Below, piece by piece: positions 45,455-56,540 of a stretch of 64,000 nt of DNA. The stretch spans positions 248,001 to 312,000 of the forward strand of contig NZ_PVZC01000002.1 of assembly GCF_003002095.1 (NCBI RefSeq), given 5' to 3'. The position numbers and the translations under genes are program-made. The notes under the pieces were generated by a model, which did no database searches, had not been told where the DNA came from, and was given only the letters and a program-made list of their open reading frames with translations. The DNA is from Allonocardiopsis opalescens. GTDB taxonomy: Bacteria; Actinomycetota; Actinomycetes; Streptosporangiales; Streptosporangiaceae. Position 1 is the first letter of the stretch, and every line of letters begins with the position of its first letter.

Positions 45455-45496
45455 CCATGGCGGGCGGGGCCGGCGAAATGCCCCCCCCCGCCATGG
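45455..45496 (+). terminator. Terminator after the alpha/beta hydrolase
   Basis: The arms CCATGGCGGG and CCCGCCATGG pair around a loop containing GGGG and a run of nine C. It lies 19 bases after the stop. Confidence 0.65.
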
Positions 45497-45579
45497 TGTG
45501 CGCTACTCCGCCGCCTTCTGTTGGCATCCTGCGATGCCGGGTACACCGTCTCTGCGGTGGACGCCATCGGGAGGTCGAT

Positions 45580-46761
45580 GTGGGCGGCGAGCTGCGCGGA
45601 CCGCCCGATTCTCCCCAGAGGCGGTTCAGCGATGAGGCGGCTCGGCCGTGGCGGTTGACGGACGAGGACCGCGAGGCGCTCGACGCGGTCCGGCGCGCCA
45701 CGACTGACGAGGACTTCAGGCAGACTCCCGACCAGGGCGAGCTGACGGCCGAAGACGATCTCCTGCTCGCCGATTACGATCCCGGCCTCGCCATGCGTGA
45801 TCCGGCGTACCTGCCCGAGGTGTTGGAACGGGTCCGTCGCGGTCTGACGGTCGACATCATCGTCGGCAGTGAGAGCCGGCACCGCCCGACCACCGCTTAT
45901 GACGCCTTCGAGCATTCCTATGTCGACACGCTGCGGCTGCCGCGCGACACCGACGCCCGCTATGACCGCGCACGCTCACCCGACGCCACCGGGACCATCC
46001 GCGAAACCCCGACGTACAACGGGATGCCCGCTCGCGGTGATGTGCGGCAAGGACAGTTGGGCGACTGCTGGCTCATGGCGGCGCTGAGCGCGGTCGCGGG
46101 CCGGGCACCCGGCGCGATCGCCAACGCCCTCAGCGACAGCGGCGACGGGGCGACCTGGAACGTCTCCTTGCACCAGGCCCGAATCGACCGGGCCACCGCC
46201 GACTGGGTGCCCAACGGGGAGACCATCGGTTTCACGGTGCGCAGGGAACTTCCCACCGACCCGGGCGAGCCCGGACAGGCGGTGTTCGCCAACACCTACG
46301 ACACTGGAGTGTCCTGGGTGGGGGGTCTAGAGAAGGCGTTCGGCGCGGTGGATCGCACGTGGAGTCTGGGTCGTCAAGCCGTGGTGTGGGACCGCGGCTA
46401 TCAGCGGCTGGACCGGGGTGGTGGTGCGTGGGAACAGGCCGAAGCGCTCTGCCAACTCACCGGGCGCCCCGCCGGAATCGTCACACTCGACCCACAACCA
46501 GGCGCAGAGGCACTGAGCGAAAACATCCTCACCGCACTGCACCGCGCGGGCAAACCCATCATCATCAGCACCCAGGAAAGCCCACGCGAGGACGGAAAGC
46601 TGCCGAACGGCCTGTTCGGGTCGCACGCATACGAGATCGTGGACGTGGCCCACGGCCGGGTGGCCCTGCGCAACCCGTGGGGCTCCGACCACCCACCGCC
46701 GGTCACAGTGCGCCGCCTGCTCGACAGCGCGCAGCCCTATGTAGCCACCCTCACCGATTGA
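45580..46761 (+). CDS. Calpain-type (C2) cysteine protease, possible effector
   Basis: A protein of 393 residues. The C-terminal half is a calpain-like papain-fold protease with the full triad: Cys163 in QGQLGDCWLMAAL, His349 in FGSHAYEIVD, Asn365 in LRNPWG. The N-terminal 150 residues are charged, lack a signal peptide and end in a linker. GTG 45580 has GGGAGG 5 bases upstream; the frame is open further upstream but includes the previous terminator. A 92-residue partner gene starts 15 bases downstream, followed by a broken second copy of this gene's 3' part and another partner gene. Export route, if any, is not visible. GC at third positions is lower than in neighbours. Confidence 0.82.
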   Translation: MGGELRGPPDSPQRRFSDEAARPWRLTDEDREALDAVRRATTDEDFRQTPDQGELTAEDDLLLADYDPGLAMRDPAYLPEVLERVRRGLTVDIIVGSESRHRPTTAYDAFEHSYVDTLRLPRDTDARYDRARSPDATGTIRETPTYNGMPARGDVRQGQLGDCWLMAALSAVAGRAPGAIANALSDSGDGATWNVSLHQARIDRATADWVPNGETIGFTVRRELPTDPGEPGQAVFANTYDTGVSWVGGLEKAFGAVDRTWSLGRQAVVWDRGYQRLDRGGGAWEQAEALCQLTGRPAGIVTLDPQPGAEALSENILTALHRAGKPIIISTQESPREDGKLPNGLFGSHAYEIVDVAHGRVALRNPWGSDHPPPVTVRRLLDSAQPYVATLTD

Positions 46762-50930: not shown

Positions 50931-51536
50931 TCAGCCCGCCCCGAGCCGCGCCAGCGCCTCGGCGGCGGTCGGCACGCCCTGGGTGGTGAGGGCCAGGTTG
51001 GCCAGCGACGCCTCGTGCACGGCGTCGTCGGCCGCCGCGACGCAGTCGGACACGACGTACACGTGGTAGCCCAGCTCGGTACCGTGCCGCGCGGTCTGCT
51101 CCACCGTGAGGTTGGTCGCCACTCCGGTGATCAGCAGGGTGTCGATGCCCGCCCCGGCCAGCCAGCCGGTAATCGGACTGGACAGGCCCGACAGCCGCTG
51201 GTTGTCGAAGACGGGATCATCCGACTCGGCGCCCGCCTCGGGCACCAGTGCGGCGCCCGGCGCGTCCGGCCGGAAGTGCTCCTGGGCTTCGCCGACGGCC
51301 GCCATGAACGGGGTGTTGCGCACCAGCCTGCCCTCACCCTCCGGCACCGTGAACCGGGTGAAGGCGACGGGCACGCCGGCCGCCCGGGCCCCGGCGTGGA
51401 AGGCGGCGGCCCGCGCCACCACACCGCTGCGCGCCACCGGCTCCGCCAGCATCCCGCCGAAGAAGCCCTCCGGCTTGATGACGTTCACCTGCCAGTGCAG
51501 CGCGAGCACGGCGGCCCGACTCGGATCGATCGACAT
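50931..51536 (-). CDS. Isochorismatase-fold protein lacking catalytic residues, copy 1
   Basis: A 201-residue cysteine-hydrolase-fold protein. The fold landmarks are present (FTRFTVPEG, TGWLAGAGIDTLLITGVATN, YVVSDC, HEASLANLALT). The triad is not: the first Asp is His14 (ALHWQ for xxDxQ), the lysine region reads VFDNQRLSG, and the nucleophile Cys is Thr144 (TNLTVEQTA for TNxCVExTA). It is therefore a pseudoenzyme or works differently. It is the downstream member of a tandem pair with the gene at 51604; the DNA of the two is nearly identical over long blocks. AGGA precedes the ATG. Confidence 0.85.
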   Translation of the reverse strand: MSIDPSRAAVLALHWQVNVIKPEGFFGGMLAEPVARSGVVARAAAFHAGARAAGVPVAFTRFTVPEGEGRLVRNTPFMAAVGEAQEHFRPDAPGAALVPEAGAESDDPVFDNQRLSGLSSPITGWLAGAGIDTLLITGVATNLTVEQTARHGTELGYHVYVVSDCVAAADDAVHEASLANLALTTQGVPTAAEALARLGAG

Positions 51537-51603
51537 GGGGACGATCCTGCCACGAACCGGCCGATCCCGGTCCGCGCGGTCCGTCGGCGGCCCCGGGGTG
51601 GAC

Positions 51604-52236
51604 TCACCAGCGGTACCGCTCACGCGGCCTGAACTCCTTGGGCAGCATCGCCAGCGCCTCGGCCGCCGTCAGGACGCCCTCGGTGGTGAGGGCGAGGTTG
51701 GCCAGCGACGCCTCGTGCACGGCCTCGTCGGCCGCCGCGGCGCAGTCGCCGATCACGTACACGCGGTAGCCCATCTCGGTGCCGTGCCGCGCGGTCTGCT
51801 CCACGGTGAGGTTGGTCGCCACCCCGGTCAGCATCAGGGTGTCGTAGCCCGCCCCGACCAGCCAGCCGGTGATCGGGCCGGACAGCCCCGACAGCCGCTG
51901 GTTGTCGAAGACGGGATCGCGCCAGTGGCGGCCGATCTCGGGCACGATCCGCGTACCGGGCGCGTCCGGCCGGAAGCTCTCCTGGGCCGCGCCGACCGCC
52001 GCCATGAACGGGCTGTTGCGCACCAGCCTGCCCTCACCCTCCGGCACCGTGAACCGGGTGAAGGCGACGGGCACCCCGCCGGCCCGCGCCCCGGCGTGGA
52101 AGGCGGCGGCCCGCGCCACCACACCGCTGCGCGCCACCGGCTCCGCCAGCATCCCGCCGAAGAAGCCCTCCGGCCTGACGACGTTCACCTGCCAGTGCAG
52201 CGCCAGCACGGCGACCCGCGCCGGATCGATGGACAT
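51604..52236 (-). CDS. Isochorismatase-fold protein lacking catalytic residues, copy 2
   Basis: A 210-residue paralogue of the protein at 50931, 67 bases upstream of it on the same strand. The same three substitutions occur (ALHWQ, VFDNQRLSG, TNLTVEQTA). Differences cluster around residues 85-106 and at the C-terminus, where it has an extra charged tail (LPKEFRPRERYRW). Retention of identical odd residues in both copies suggests they were fixed before duplication and serve a purpose. It is divergent from the acyl-CoA dehydrogenase gene. Confidence 0.85.
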   Translation of the reverse strand: MSIDPARVAVLALHWQVNVVRPEGFFGGMLAEPVARSGVVARAAAFHAGARAGGVPVAFTRFTVPEGEGRLVRNSPFMAAVGAAQESFRPDAPGTRIVPEIGRHWRDPVFDNQRLSGLSGPITGWLVGAGYDTLMLTGVATNLTVEQTARHGTEMGYRVYVIGDCAAAADEAVHEASLANLALTTEGVLTAAEALAMLPKEFRPRERYRW

Positions 52237-52400
52237 GGGGCGATCCTGCCACCAACCGGAGAATCCCGGTCCGCGAGGCCGCGAGCGGAAGTGAATACCC
52301 TTCCTACCGGCGGGTAGGACCAGCGGCGGAATCGCACGGGCGCGGTCGGGGGACGGCGTCCCGCTGCCCGCAGCTTCACGACACCGCGAGGTGGTGTGCC

Positions 52401-54371
52401 TTGAGCACCCAGACGAACGCACCCGCTGACGCGCCCGCCGACGCATCTGCCGCACAGTCCGGCCAGATCGACGAGCGGCAGGCCAGGAAGGTGGCCGAGG
52501 CGGCCAGGGAGTCCGACTGGCGGCGGCCGAGCTTCGGCAAGGAGCTGTTCCTGGGCCGGCTGCGGCTGGACCTGATCCACCCCCATCCGCGGCCCGACGA
52601 CGCCGCCCGTGAGAAGGGCGAGTCCTTCCTGCGGCGGCTGCGGGCCTTCTGCGCGGAGAAGGTGGACAGTGCCGTCATCGAGCGGGACGCCCAGATCCCC
52701 GACGAGGTCGTGCGCGGCCTGATGGAGATCGGCGCGTTCGGGATGAAGATCGACGAGGAGTACGGCGGGCTCGGCCTCTCGCAGCTGTACTACAACCGCG
52801 CGCTGATGCTGGCGGGCTCCGTCAGCCCGGCGATCGGCGCGCTGCTGTCGGCGCACCAGTCCATCGGGGTGCCGCAGCCGCTCAAGCAGTTCGGCACCGA
52901 CGAGCAGAAGCGCCGCTTCCTGCCGCGCTGCGCCACCACCGCCATCAGCGCCTTCCTGCTCACCGAGCCGGACGTCGGCAGCGACCCGGCCCGGGTGCGC
53001 ACCACCGCCGTACCGACCGAGGACGGCTCCGGCTACGTGCTGGACGGCGTGAAGCTGTGGACGACCAACGGGGTGGTCGCCGACCTGCTGGTGGTGATGG
53101 CCAAGGTCCCCAGGAGCGAGGGGCACCGCGGCGGGGTGACCGCCTTCGTGGTGGAGGGCGACGCCGAGGGCATCACCGTGGAGAACCGCAACGCCTTCAT
53201 GGGGCTGCGCGGCATCGAGAACGGGGTGACCCGCTTCCACCAGGTCCGCGTCCCGGCCGAGAACCGGATCGGCCGCGAGGGCGAGGGGCTGAAGATCGCG
53301 CTCACCACCCTCAACACCGGCCGCCTGTCGCTGCCCGCCATGTGCACCGGCGCCGGCAAGTACGCCACCCGGATGGCGCGGGAGTGGGCGCGCGAGCGGG
53401 TGCAGTGGGGCAAGCCGGTCGGCCGGCACGAGGAGGTGGCCAAGAAGCTGTCCTTCATGGCGGCCACCACCTACGCGCTGGAGGCGATGCTCGACCTCAC
53501 CAGCCAGCTCGCCGACGACGACCGCAACGACATCCGGATCGAGGCGGCGATCGCCAAGCTGTGGTCCTCGGAGATGGCCTGGCTGATCGCCGACGAGCTG
53601 GTGCAGGTGCGCGGCGGGCGCGGCTACGAGACGGCGGCGTCGCTGGCGGCGCGGGGCGAGCGGGGCGTCCCGGCCGAGCAGCTGCTGCGCGACCTGCGGA
53701 TCAACCGGATCTTCGAGGGGTCCACCGAGGTGATGCACCTGTTCATCGCCCGCGAGGCGGTGGACGCGCACCTGTCGGTGGCCGGCGACATCATCGACCC
53801 CGACGCCGACAACCGGGCCAAGGCGAAGGCCGCGGTGTCGGCCGGGCGCTTCTACGCGGGCTGGCTGCCCACCCTGATGGTCGGCGAGGGCCAGCTGCCC
53901 AACGCCTTCGGCGAGTTCGGCCCGCTCGCCCGGCACCTGCGCTTCGTGGAGCGCACCAGCCGCCGGCTGGCCCGCTCCACCTTCTACGCCATGTCGCGCT
54001 GGCAGGGCGGGCTGGAGCGCAAGCAGGGCTTCCTGGCCCGGGTGGTCGACGTGGGCGCGGAGCTGTTCGCGATCAGCGCGGTGTGCGTGCGGGCCCACCA
54101 CGACGGCGCCGAGCACCCCGAGCGGCGCCGCTCCGCTCACGAGCTGGCCGACGTGTTCGCCCGCCAGGCCCGGCTGCGGGTCGAGGGCCTGCTGCACGCC
54201 ATGTGGGACAACACCGACGAGGTCGACGGGCTGCTCGCGGACCGGCTGCTGGACGGCCGCTACGAGTGGCTGGAGGACGGGGTGCTCGACCCGTCGACGC
54301 CGGGGCCGTGGATCGCCTCGTCGGAGCCCGGCCCGTCGGCGCGGGAGAACGTGCACCGGCCGATCCGCTGA
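52401..54371 (+). CDS. Acyl-CoA dehydrogenase family protein
   Basis: A 656-residue FAD enzyme, longer than the usual 380-residue ACAD. An N-terminal extension leads to the core: EEYGGLGLSQLYYNRALMLAG, AFLLTEPDVGSDPARVRTTA, LDGVKLWTTNGVVADLLVV, and QVRGGRGYETA with IFEGSTEVMHLFIAREA. An extra C-terminal helical domain of about 170 residues resembles VLCAD/ACAD9-type and actinobacterial FadE proteins. It oxidises an acyl-CoA to the enoyl-CoA. TTG 52401 is the first start after the GCGAGG site. Confidence 0.9.
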   Translation: MSTQTNAPADAPADASAAQSGQIDERQARKVAEAARESDWRRPSFGKELFLGRLRLDLIHPHPRPDDAAREKGESFLRRLRAFCAEKVDSAVIERDAQIPDEVVRGLMEIGAFGMKIDEEYGGLGLSQLYYNRALMLAGSVSPAIGALLSAHQSIGVPQPLKQFGTDEQKRRFLPRCATTAISAFLLTEPDVGSDPARVRTTAVPTEDGSGYVLDGVKLWTTNGVVADLLVVMAKVPRSEGHRGGVTAFVVEGDAEGITVENRNAFMGLRGIENGVTRFHQVRVPAENRIGREGEGLKIALTTLNTGRLSLPAMCTGAGKYATRMAREWARERVQWGKPVGRHEEVAKKLSFMAATTYALEAMLDLTSQLADDDRNDIRIEAAIAKLWSSEMAWLIADELVQVRGGRGYETAASLAARGERGVPAEQLLRDLRINRIFEGSTEVMHLFIAREAVDAHLSVAGDIIDPDADNRAKAKAAVSAGRFYAGWLPTLMVGEGQLPNAFGEFGPLARHLRFVERTSRRLARSTFYAMSRWQGGLERKQGFLARVVDVGAELFAISAVCVRAHHDGAEHPERRRSAHELADVFARQARLRVEGLLHAMWDNTDEVDGLLADRLLDGRYEWLEDGVLDPSTPGPWIASSEPGPSARENVHRPIR

Positions 54372-54405: not shown

Positions 54406-54840
54406 TCAGTCCTCGGTGAAGCGCACCCTGACGGTGTAGGGGTGCTGCTCGGCGGTGATGGCCTCGATGGTGAGGGTGCCGCCCGCCACCTCCTCGGTGT
54501 GCCCGACCGGGCCGCGCACCGAGGTGGTGGTGCCGTCGGGGCTCACCAGGTCGAGCGCGGCCTCGTCGGCGCTGATGCCCATGACGCCGACGGTGAACTC
54601 GCCGAGCGGCGACTGGGTGCCCTCGGCGAGGGTGGCGGTGCCCGGCTCGGGCGGCGACGGGCTCATGCTGCTCTCCTGCTCAGCCGGCGGCGGGGCGTTG
54701 ACGGGCTCCGCGGCGTCGCAGCCGGCCAGCACGGCGGCGGCCAGCAGCGCGGGAAGCGCGGCGAGCAGGGCCGCCGGGCGGCGGCTCGGGCCGGCCCGGC
54801 GGGCGGGCTCGGCGCGGTGCTGCGGTGCGGTGGGTGTCAT
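54406..54840 (-). CDS. Lipoprotein partner of the pilin-calpain fusion
   Basis: A 144-residue lipoprotein. The signal ends in lipobox VLAGC (Cys about residue 43), followed by a Pro/Glu/Ser linker. The C-terminal 75 residues are beta-rich: FTVGVMGIS, EAALDLVSPDG, HTEEVAGGTLTIEAI, YTVRVRFTED. This strand order and spacing parallels the 92-residue partner of the other calpain gene. It begins 8 bases after the stop of the fusion gene, with GAGGA upstream, so it is coupled to it. A surface-anchored inhibitor or immunity protein for the exported protease is proposed; the function is unproven. Confidence 0.75.
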   Translation of the reverse strand: MTPTAPQHRAEPARRAGPSRRPAALLAALPALLAAAVLAGCDAAEPVNAPPPAEQESSMSPSPPEPGTATLAEGTQSPLGEFTVGVMGISADEAALDLVSPDGTTTSVRGPVGHTEEVAGGTLTIEAITAEQHPYTVRVRFTED

Positions 54841-54848
54841 CGAAGTCC

Positions 54849-56204
54849 TCAGCCGAAGTTGTTGCTCTGCATCTGCACGAACGCCTCGTCCAGCTCCGAG
54901 TGGTTCACGGTGCGGTGGTTGCGGCCCCACGGGTTGTACAGGGTAACCTCGCCGGTCTGCTCGTTGACGCCGGTGACCACGTAGAAGTGGAAGTTGTTGA
55001 GGTCGGGCGGGTCGGGCTGCCCGTCGTAGCGCGGCCCTTCGGCGTCGTCCATGGACGGGGTGTTGAAGGCGATGGCGTCGCCGTTGCGGTGCATCTCGGC
55101 CAGCTCCGACAGCGAGACGTCGCCCGAGTCGCGGCTGTCGCTCTCGTTGCCGGTCAGGATCTCCATGCCGCGGGTGAAGGAGTCGACCTCCACCTGCTCG
55201 TAGCCGCCGTCGCGCTGCGCCAGCGCCTTCTCCATGATGGCGGGCCACAGCACCGGCGGGTTGCCGCGCGTCCCGGCGAACACGGGGTTGCCGTTCTCCG
55301 ACAGCGGGAGGTCGGGGGTGACCGTGACGGCCTCGCCGTCGGGGAAGGTGACGGTGAAGGTGCCGTTGGGGTTCTCCACGATCATGTCGCGGATGCGGCC
55401 GGGCTCGTGCTGGGCGGTGGCGCCGAGCGAGGCCATCCACCAGCAGTCCGAGAGCGCCTGCTGGTTGATGTCCTCGATGGAGATCTGGTCGTTGTTGGGC
55501 CCGCCGAACAGCTGGCCGCCCGGCACCTCGCCGTAGCGGGCGGTGTCGGCGGTGTCGCTGCCCACGTTGTCGAACCTGGGGTCGAGCGGGAAGGCGTTGG
55601 CCGCGCCCAGCCGGCGCAGGGTGTCCAGGGAGGCGTTGCGGCGGATGTGCTCGGCGACCAGGTTGATGCCCACGGGCGAGGCGAACAGCTCGCGCAGCTC
55701 GTCCTCGCTCAGCCCGGCGAGGGCGGCGTCCAGTTCGGGGCCGGTGAGGTTCATCAGCCGCTGGTACAGCTCCAGGGAGTCGGGGCCGTCCCATTCCCAG
55801 GGCCAGAAGCCGGGCTCGAAGTCGAGGTACTCGCGGATGAAGCGGCGGGTGTCATCCACCTGGCCCTGGTCGACAGGACCGGGGTCGTCGGGCGGGCGGG
55901 TGGTGGGGTCGGGCAGCGGGCGGTCGTCGTCGACCGGGCCCTCGTTGGCGCCCTCGTCCGGGTCGCCGCTGACGGGGGCGCCGTCGGGGGCGGCGGTGTC
56001 CTGCTCGGCGCAGGCGTCCGGCCCCTGGAACAGGCCGCAGACGGCCCGCTGGACGCTGTCGCCGATGGTCTGGAAGGCGCCGGTGCCGACGATCAGGGCC
56101 AGGAGGGCGCCGGCGATCACGATGACCGCCGCGTATTCGAGCGCGGAGGCGCCCCGCTCGCGGCGCGCACGCGCCAGGGCCGCCGCCCGGCTCCGGATGA
56201 TCAT
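54849..56204 (-). CDS. Type IVb pilin-like N-terminus fused to a calpain-type protease
   Basis: A 451-residue protein (454 from GTG 56213). The N-terminus matches a Flp/Tad prepilin: basic leader, then ERG, cleavage site, and ASALEYAAVIVIAG with Glu5 and Tyr6 of the mature form, followed by the hydrophobic helix. A Pro/Asp-rich linker (about 70-115) and a helical region precede a C2-type protease domain with Cys254 (SDCWWMAS), His406 (NNFHFYVVTG) and Asn424 (YNPWG). A TAACGT box 7 bases before ATG 56204 suggests a leaderless transcript. The fusion implies export or surface display by Tad-type machinery, which is not encoded here. Confidence 0.82.
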   Translation of the reverse strand: MIIRSRAAALARARRERGASALEYAAVIVIAGALLALIVGTGAFQTIGDSVQRAVCGLFQGPDACAEQDTAAPDGAPVSGDPDEGANEGPVDDDRPLPDPTTRPPDDPGPVDQGQVDDTRRFIREYLDFEPGFWPWEWDGPDSLELYQRLMNLTGPELDAALAGLSEDELRELFASPVGINLVAEHIRRNASLDTLRRLGAANAFPLDPRFDNVGSDTADTARYGEVPGGQLFGGPNNDQISIEDINQQALSDCWWMASLGATAQHEPGRIRDMIVENPNGTFTVTFPDGEAVTVTPDLPLSENGNPVFAGTRGNPPVLWPAIMEKALAQRDGGYEQVEVDSFTRGMEILTGNESDSRDSGDVSLSELAEMHRNGDAIAFNTPSMDDAEGPRYDGQPDPPDLNNFHFYVVTGVNEQTGEVTLYNPWGRNHRTVNHSELDEAFVQMQSNNFG

Positions 56205-56540
56205 GGCGGACACGTTAGGCGGGCCCCAGGGCCCTGACCAGGGTCCAGGGGTGGAATTACGGACCTGAAAGCGATGATGGTCCGGTTCGTCACGCAGCGT
56301 CCGCGCGAACTGGGTCCGGACACACGAACGGGCGCCTCTCCCCCAAGAGACGCCCGCTCGCTACCCGAACTACCCGCATCACGCATCTGGTCCAACGGCC
56401 TTGGGGCGCCCCGCGTTCCCGCGTTCCCGTTATTGCGCCGTGATGTAGGTAACAGGGCGTGGTCGCCTGGGTCACGTCGGCAGGCCGCCGGGGCCGAGCG
56501 CCGGATAGTGGTATGGATGGGGGATTGCAGAAGGAGGGCC
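56205..56540. other. Divergent intergenic region, 336 bp
   Basis: Between the fusion gene and the LacI gene. It contains the likely TAACGT -10 box of the fusion gene, a GGGCCC-rich inverted repeat near 56219-56236, and a bulged hairpin at 56330-56355 (GGGCG-CC-TCTC with GAGA-CGCCC). No gene was seen. Confidence 0.5.

Follow-up and report, generated by a model that had tools for sequence, protein, structure and literature searches.

The window analyzed here, a 64,000-nucleotide stretch of the Allonocardiopsis opalescens genome (contig NZ_PVZC01000002.1), encodes a calpain-family protease headed by a type IVb prepilin module and, beginning 8 bp downstream of the fusion gene, a small lipoprotein (Table 1). 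The fusion is read from an ATG, and an alternative in-frame GTG start lies at position 56213. Its N-terminus is MIIRSRAAALARARRERG^ASALEYAAVIVIAGALLALIVGTGAF (^ marks the predicted prepilin cleavage position), in which a basic leader, Gly18 at position -1, Glu23 and Tyr24 at positions 5 and 6, and a hydrophobic helix are followed by Cys56. An AF2 model of the fusion built on 13 sequences has pilin helices at residues 21-40 and 44-60 and no pilin globular domain. Of the 582 background genes called, only the calpain fusion and one other prepilin fusion combine the motif with the helix, compared to a chance expectation of 0.0 from shuffles. A sequence-only reading of the window had proposed a Flp-type prepilin site in this protein, and both the residues at these positions and the motif control bear it out. 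Against Flp/TadE-type Pfam models the fusion gives only DUF4244, with an E value of 0.049, and the 78-aa Flp pilins of the same genome likewise lack a match to any Pfam model. In Pfam, the fusion has neither an N_methyl (IPR012902) pilin domain nor a HINT domain.

Table 1. Features of the prepilin-calpain locus, in window coordinates
Feature	Position	Strand	Basis
Lipoprotein, 144 aa, lipobox Cys41, proposed immunity/inhibitor partner	54406..54840	-	ORF and lipobox; model; genetic pairing with prepilin-calpains
Prepilin-calpain fusion protein, 451 aa	54849..56204	-	ORF; Peptidase_C2 1.2e-18; AF2 model, Z 23.3 vs calpain-3 core
Calpain protease core, residues 239-451, triad C254/H406/N424	54852..55490	-	Pfam; invariant triad; VIA-align
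Helical region, residues 113-221, N-terminal to protease core	55542..55868	-	AF2 model
Linker, residues 61-112, predicted disordered	55869..56024	-	AF2 pLDDT mostly <50 at residues 66-104
Type IVb prepilin module, residues 1-60	56025..56204	-	Sequence; profile of 25 modules; motif control

The C-terminal part of the fusion is a complete calpain core. The Pfam Peptidase_C2 match covers residues 239-437, and the three triad residues are invariant in alignments of 12 and 13 sequences. VIA-align superposes the core on human calpain-3 with an rmsd of 2.7 over 249 aligned residues at 20% identity. The C2 domain, the Cys-His-Asn triad and the two-lobed core fold, which together define calpains (peptidase family C2), are all present, in agreement with the complete triad claimed in the earlier reading. 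That reading had also described the neighboring gene, 8 bases away, as encoding a lipoprotein; its lipobox (...AAAVLAGC41) is present and the Cys is invariant in 12 homologues. The predicted structure of the lipoprotein contains an all-beta domain at residues 68-144, mostly with pLDDT >90. Foldseek returned nothing significant for this domain (best E 0.034). The VIA-align list contains CcsBA together with secretin-type and S-layer beta domains, the last two at Z 4-9, a result of uncertain meaning. We considered a chagasin-like cysteine-protease inhibitor, and found no inhibitor family in the VIA-align list and no significant Foldseek match.

A calpain-core pattern scan of about 85,000 species genomes, from which 79 calpain loci were kept, revealed prepilin-calpain genes in Nocardiopsis trehalosi, N. 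potens, N. halophila, N. chromatogenes and N. endophytica (three genes). Further examples occur in Allosalinactinospora lopnorensis, Murinocardiopsis flavida, two Actinomadura and an actinobacterial MAG, and in Thermobifida cellulosilytica the reading frame is interrupted. The lipoprotein domain follows nearly every prepilin-calpain gene; it is missing after L007 and could not be seen in L242. The domain also comes after a signal-peptide calpain of this clade (L013) and, weakly, after L015. It was found after none of 65 scanned calpain loci without the prepilin module, some of which end early, and beside no other type of prepilin fusion in the fetched loci. Its other occurrences in the fetched DNA are a few partial matches only, all at loci of this calpain clade. 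Because the domain goes with the calpain and not with the pilin, a role as inhibitor or immunity protein is favored over a role in pilus assembly, and is the more likely reading of the lipoprotein given the gene pairing. We infer that the lipoprotein may provide surface-side immunity against the calpain.

The prepilin N-terminus is shared far more widely than the calpain. A search of 150 related genomes with the full-length fusion returned calpain homologues and dozens of matches to approximately the first 100 residues only; the latter lie mostly in open frames 300-1300 aa long, and a single genome has as many as ten. A profile built from 25 of these prepilin N-termini (A2; cut-off E<=1e-4) matches 104 of 299 genomes of the family at up to 22 places per genome, and the matches divide by size into short pilins and long fusions. 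Both searches thus found comparable prepilin-enzyme fusions in relatives, a check that the sequence-only reading had suggested. A one-off fusion is ruled out by the dozens of N-terminal matches in relatives and by the family-wide profile matches. Phylum-wide, A2 matches are sparse, occurring in 15 of 296 genomes if the query genome is counted. A prepilin-RHS protein (L219:1459-3144; RHS_repeat, 6.3e-42) belongs to a genome from another class-level group of the phylum, and the phylum-wide search returned a prepilin-DUF6782 protein in L234. DUF6782, a putative metallopeptidase domain, matches two of 92 sampled fusions.

The Allonocardiopsis genome, examined by searches and fetched stretches, encodes about a dozen proteins with this prepilin N-terminus. 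Four contain a pretoxin HINT domain (E 1.8e-15 to 3.5e-21); the other domains include a GDSL hydrolase, a GmrSD_C/HNH nuclease, a weak match to SLT lytic transglycosylase and large unknown domains. Across genomes, 60 fetched regions yielded 96 uncut fusions of at least 280 aa, of which 92 were scanned for domains. PT-HINT was present in 54 and Peptidase_C2 in six. The C-termini match Toxin-deaminase (7), Ntox24 (4), XOO_2897 deaminase (3), CdiA-CT RNase A (2) and Colicin_D (2), as well as Col-Pyo_DNase (2.4e-38), Cytotoxic/colicin E3 type (1.3e-33), Tox-REase-3, ADPrib_exo_Tox, CdiA_C and Ntox50. The next genes downstream encode SUKH-1 (7), SUKH_6 (3), Colicin_immun (2), Imm7 (5.9e-35), SUKH-4, Barstar and CdiI_2. 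Compared by eye, like toxin types have like neighbors in different genomes; for example, deaminase-type C-termini occur with SUKH-like proteins in L082, L100, L111, L120 and L135.

A search that started from HINT instead of the N-terminus led to the same family. The prepilin module is present on 62 of 73 PT-HINT genes in 15 genomes, tallied by hand from a PT-HINT family search matched to prepilin matches, a share that is no estimate for the whole family because these genomes were chosen for holding many fusions. Two of the 62 are interrupted by frameshifts, and in the Allonocardiopsis genome all four PT-HINT genes carry the module. The remaining PT-HINT genes are giant RHS-like frames, fragments, genes at contig ends or genes with lost N-termini. 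The prepilin family thus has both the exchangeable C-terminal toxin domains and the directly downstream immunity families by which polymorphic toxins are recognized. Because the module heads HINT and toxin proteins to this extent, it seems to serve polymorphic toxins as a trafficking module, and the calpain would be one of its payloads. HINT, which is common among such toxins and not strictly required, is lacking in the calpain protein, and we therefore file the calpain only as a likely payload of the common front end. A lipoprotein is encoded by the next gene after 14 of 32 non-HINT fusions versus none of 48 HINT fusions (Fisher 3e-7, a p-value that overstates the contrast because related genes are not independent), and the calpain fusion falls in the non-HINT branch. 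On the simplest reading of this division, HINT toxins would have their targets in the cytoplasm and require immunity proteins there, whereas enzymes without HINT would act outside and need immunity at the surface.

The genome encodes machinery that could handle such proteins. A Tad locus on contig 9 (L037) contains genes for RcpC/CpaB, TadZ, TadE, TadA, TadB and TadC, together with a histidine kinase, a response regulator, two Flp-like pilins and a TadE/G-like protein (Pfam: T2SSE, 7.6e-69; T2SSF, 1.6e-18 and 4.2e-21; RcpC, 4.1e-16). Contig 4 encodes one A24 prepilin peptidase, whose sequence includes a GFGD motif. The sequence-only reading had made its proposal depend on Tad and prepilin peptidase genes elsewhere in the genome, and both are present. 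The A24 peptidase occurs in 138 of the 150 related genomes; because it is nearly universal, its co-occurrence with fusions is not discriminating and constitutes permissive evidence only. The two Flp-like pilin genes of the Tad locus (L037:14575-14811 and L037:14891-15127) encode identical 78-aa products. An SLT-type prepilin fusion recurs in several genomes (L037:18027-18611, beside the Tad locus; L139:1751-2353; L256), and a prepilin with such a lytic-transglycosylase-like domain may open the wall for the pilus.

Anatomy, gene content, motif, fold, family architecture and gene pairing are directly established for this system, and on this basis we lean toward the view that the calpain fusion is a payload of a prepilin-fronted effector system, loaded by Tad machinery and acting on competitors, with the lipoprotein protecting the producer. 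The Flp-type N-terminus would insert in the membrane and the A24 peptidase would cut after Gly18, as prepilin peptidases cut pilins after the leader Gly (PMC8179133). The processed fusion would be taken up by the Tad machinery as a minor (tip) subunit, which would bring its C-terminal enzyme to the outer side of the wall, either held there or set free. Polymorphic toxins appear to be carried by the same front end in this actinomycete family, most of those sampled having HINT and a downstream immunity gene; HINT is thought to cut toxins loose by autoproteolysis (PMC3482391). The calpain would act outside the cytoplasm of the producer, presumably on competitors, and the lipoprotein, anchored on the same membrane face, would protect the producer, probably by inhibition. 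The earlier reading, in which a protease displayed or released through Tad-type pilus machinery would be a new use of prepilins, is partly supported, by the anatomy, the machinery and the relatives, but the protein is no isolated protease-pilin oddity. A module for delivery or display of toxins and effectors is the better reading because the N-terminus fronts a large family of toxins and enzymes.

Alternatively, the N-terminal helix could be only a signal anchor. The calpain would then be a membrane-tethered ectoenzyme that is left uncut and never enters a pilus, and its likeness to Flp would reflect ancestry without function. We consider this unlikely, even though the missing pilin globular domain and the long disordered linker would suit it, Glu5 is replaced by Gln or Ser in three calpain relatives (L141, L142 and L143), and most fusion genes in the Allonocardiopsis genome are far from the Tad locus. 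In addition, L013 has an ordinary signal peptide in place of the prepilin module, which indicates that the calpain-lipoprotein pair can do without delivery by a pilus. However, a plain anchor requires neither Gly(-1) nor Tyr6, yet both are kept in the clade relatives found by calpain core patterns only, which have the module in front. Among the 92 fusions, whose C-termini are otherwise unrelated, Gly(-1) is invariant and Glu5 and Tyr6 are each conserved in at least 90%, a pattern that is partly built in by selecting this set with the profile of the module. Three prepilin fusions do adjoin the Tad locus in this genome, which also counts against a simple anchor.

Two further explanations retain the pilus or the partnership and assign them other purposes. 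The calpain could be a house-keeping surface protease, a modular tip pilin that trims or remodels structures of the producer itself (pilus, wall or matrix); the lipoprotein would then serve to regulate or dock it, and no competitor would be attacked. We give this a minor but real chance. Peptidase modules have been described in modular pilins (PMC8179133), the fusions of this genome include hydrolases (GDSL, SLT) that are not necessarily toxins, and the calpain-lipoprotein pair has been conserved in different genera, whereas the HINT toxins change fast. Nevertheless, the pair is patchy (full-length calpain matches in about ten of the 150 relatives), is multi-copy in N. endophytica, and sits among other prepilin-toxin fusions in L120, L127, L141 and L147, and is therefore arsenal-like rather than house-keeping. 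We judge it quite improbable that the lipoprotein serves the fusion as a pilotin-like or assembly factor instead of as an immunity protein. Lipoprotein pilotins occur with the secretins of diderm Tad systems (PMC10499894), and the secretin-type and S-layer domains in the VIA-align list, for what these matches mean, would be in keeping with such a role. Secretins are not expected in monoderm bacteria, however, and the lipoprotein domain is specific to the calpain clade, where it accompanies even the signal-peptide calpain, and is absent beside HINT fusions with the same prepilin module.

The components of the proposed system have precedents. Polymorphic toxin systems (Zhang et al. 2012, PMC3482391) likewise have one N-terminal trafficking module for many C-terminal toxins, a pretoxin HINT domain just before the toxin and a downstream immunity gene; here, in contrast, the trafficking module is a Tad/Flp prepilin and the calpain member lacks HINT. 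That work mentions neither pilin nor calpain, and prepilin-fronted toxins may be counted there among exported proteins under T2SS. Modular type IV pilins such as PilB of Streptococcus sanguinis (PMC8179133) similarly have a functional module grafted on a pilin N-terminus, in 264 architectures that include two predicted peptidases, S74 and M26. PilB-type pilins carry the N_methyl domain. The present family differs in having a Flp-like pilin portion, and its modules are toxins of the interbacterial type that come with immunity genes. That study does not refer to Tad, Flp or immunity, and speaks of toxin only for the toxin-coregulated pilus. The calpain fusion has an extra module but no N_methyl Pfam match, and would operate as a Tad-branch counterpart of the modular pilins. 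In Myxococcus, minor pilins of Tad pili form tips and mediate killing (PMC8460266, PMC12075869). By description, the Kil Tad pilus of Myxococcus xanthus shares interchangeable minor-pilin tips and contact-dependent killing with the system proposed here. However, covalent fusion to a toxin has not been reported for Kil tips, the Kil toxin is still unknown, and Kil has a T3SS-like partner in a diderm host, whereas here toxins are joined to prepilins in monoderm actinomycetes. Papain-like protease toxin/immunity pairs (PDB 9l5u, 8ssm) also combine a cysteine-protease toxin with a cognate immunity protein and are distant structural matches (Z about 8); the protein described here instead has a full two-lobed calpain core behind a prepilin, paired with a lipoprotein. 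No paper on prepilin-toxin fusions was found in a search of open-licence PMC literature, without preprints and with few subscription papers. Because modular pilins and polymorphic toxins are known separately and neither text joins Tad/Flp pilins with toxins, the combination of these parts and of killing Tad pili appears to be new.

More broadly, we see an even chance that actinomycetes generally use their Tad pili as weapons against other bacteria. Type IVb prepilin modules, a so far undescribed trafficking class of polymorphic toxins, would then load onto the pilus nucleases, deaminases and ADP-ribosyltransferases that HINT releases, along with proteases acting at the surface, with cytoplasmic immunity for HINT toxins and lipoproteins for surface enzymes. 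If so, this would provide an export route for the large toxin arsenal of monoderm actinomycetes and a possible weapon function for their widespread Tad pili. Toxins physically joined to pilins would be the element missing from the Myxococcus Kil work. Many uncharacterized toxin/immunity pairs would be exposed, together with a calpain that has a candidate protein inhibitor.

Several additional observations concern the family and the window. Frameshifts interrupt prepilin-toxin or prepilin-calpain genes at L256, L143, L149 and G049:C82, separating the prepilin module from the calpain core in L143 and L149; they could represent decay, phase variation or sequencing error. A widespread family of prepilin fusions of approximately 480 aa (L038:3-1406, L038:2136-3659, L261, L087:7648-9165, L120:15861-17309, L238 and L235) extends beyond the actinomycete family and is a candidate conserved tip pilin; many members have a C-terminal motif resembling EYLGAP or AEYLD, and a lipoprotein or membrane neighbor is frequent. 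Fusions in L084, L109, L111:3457-4674 and L130 share another C-terminal type (LHQYG.AQEFW or similar) and have lipoprotein neighbors. The window contains a second calpain-family open reading frame at 45457-46761 (+) (Peptidase_C2, E 2.1e-12), 8 kb from the fusion, with neither a prepilin module nor the lipoprotein domain. Two closely similar neighboring genes at 50931-52455 (-), which both contain MSIDP.R.AVLALHWQVNV..PEGFFGGMLAEPVARSGVVARAAAFHAGARA and presumably belong to the isochorismatase-like hydrolase family, form an apparent tandem duplication.
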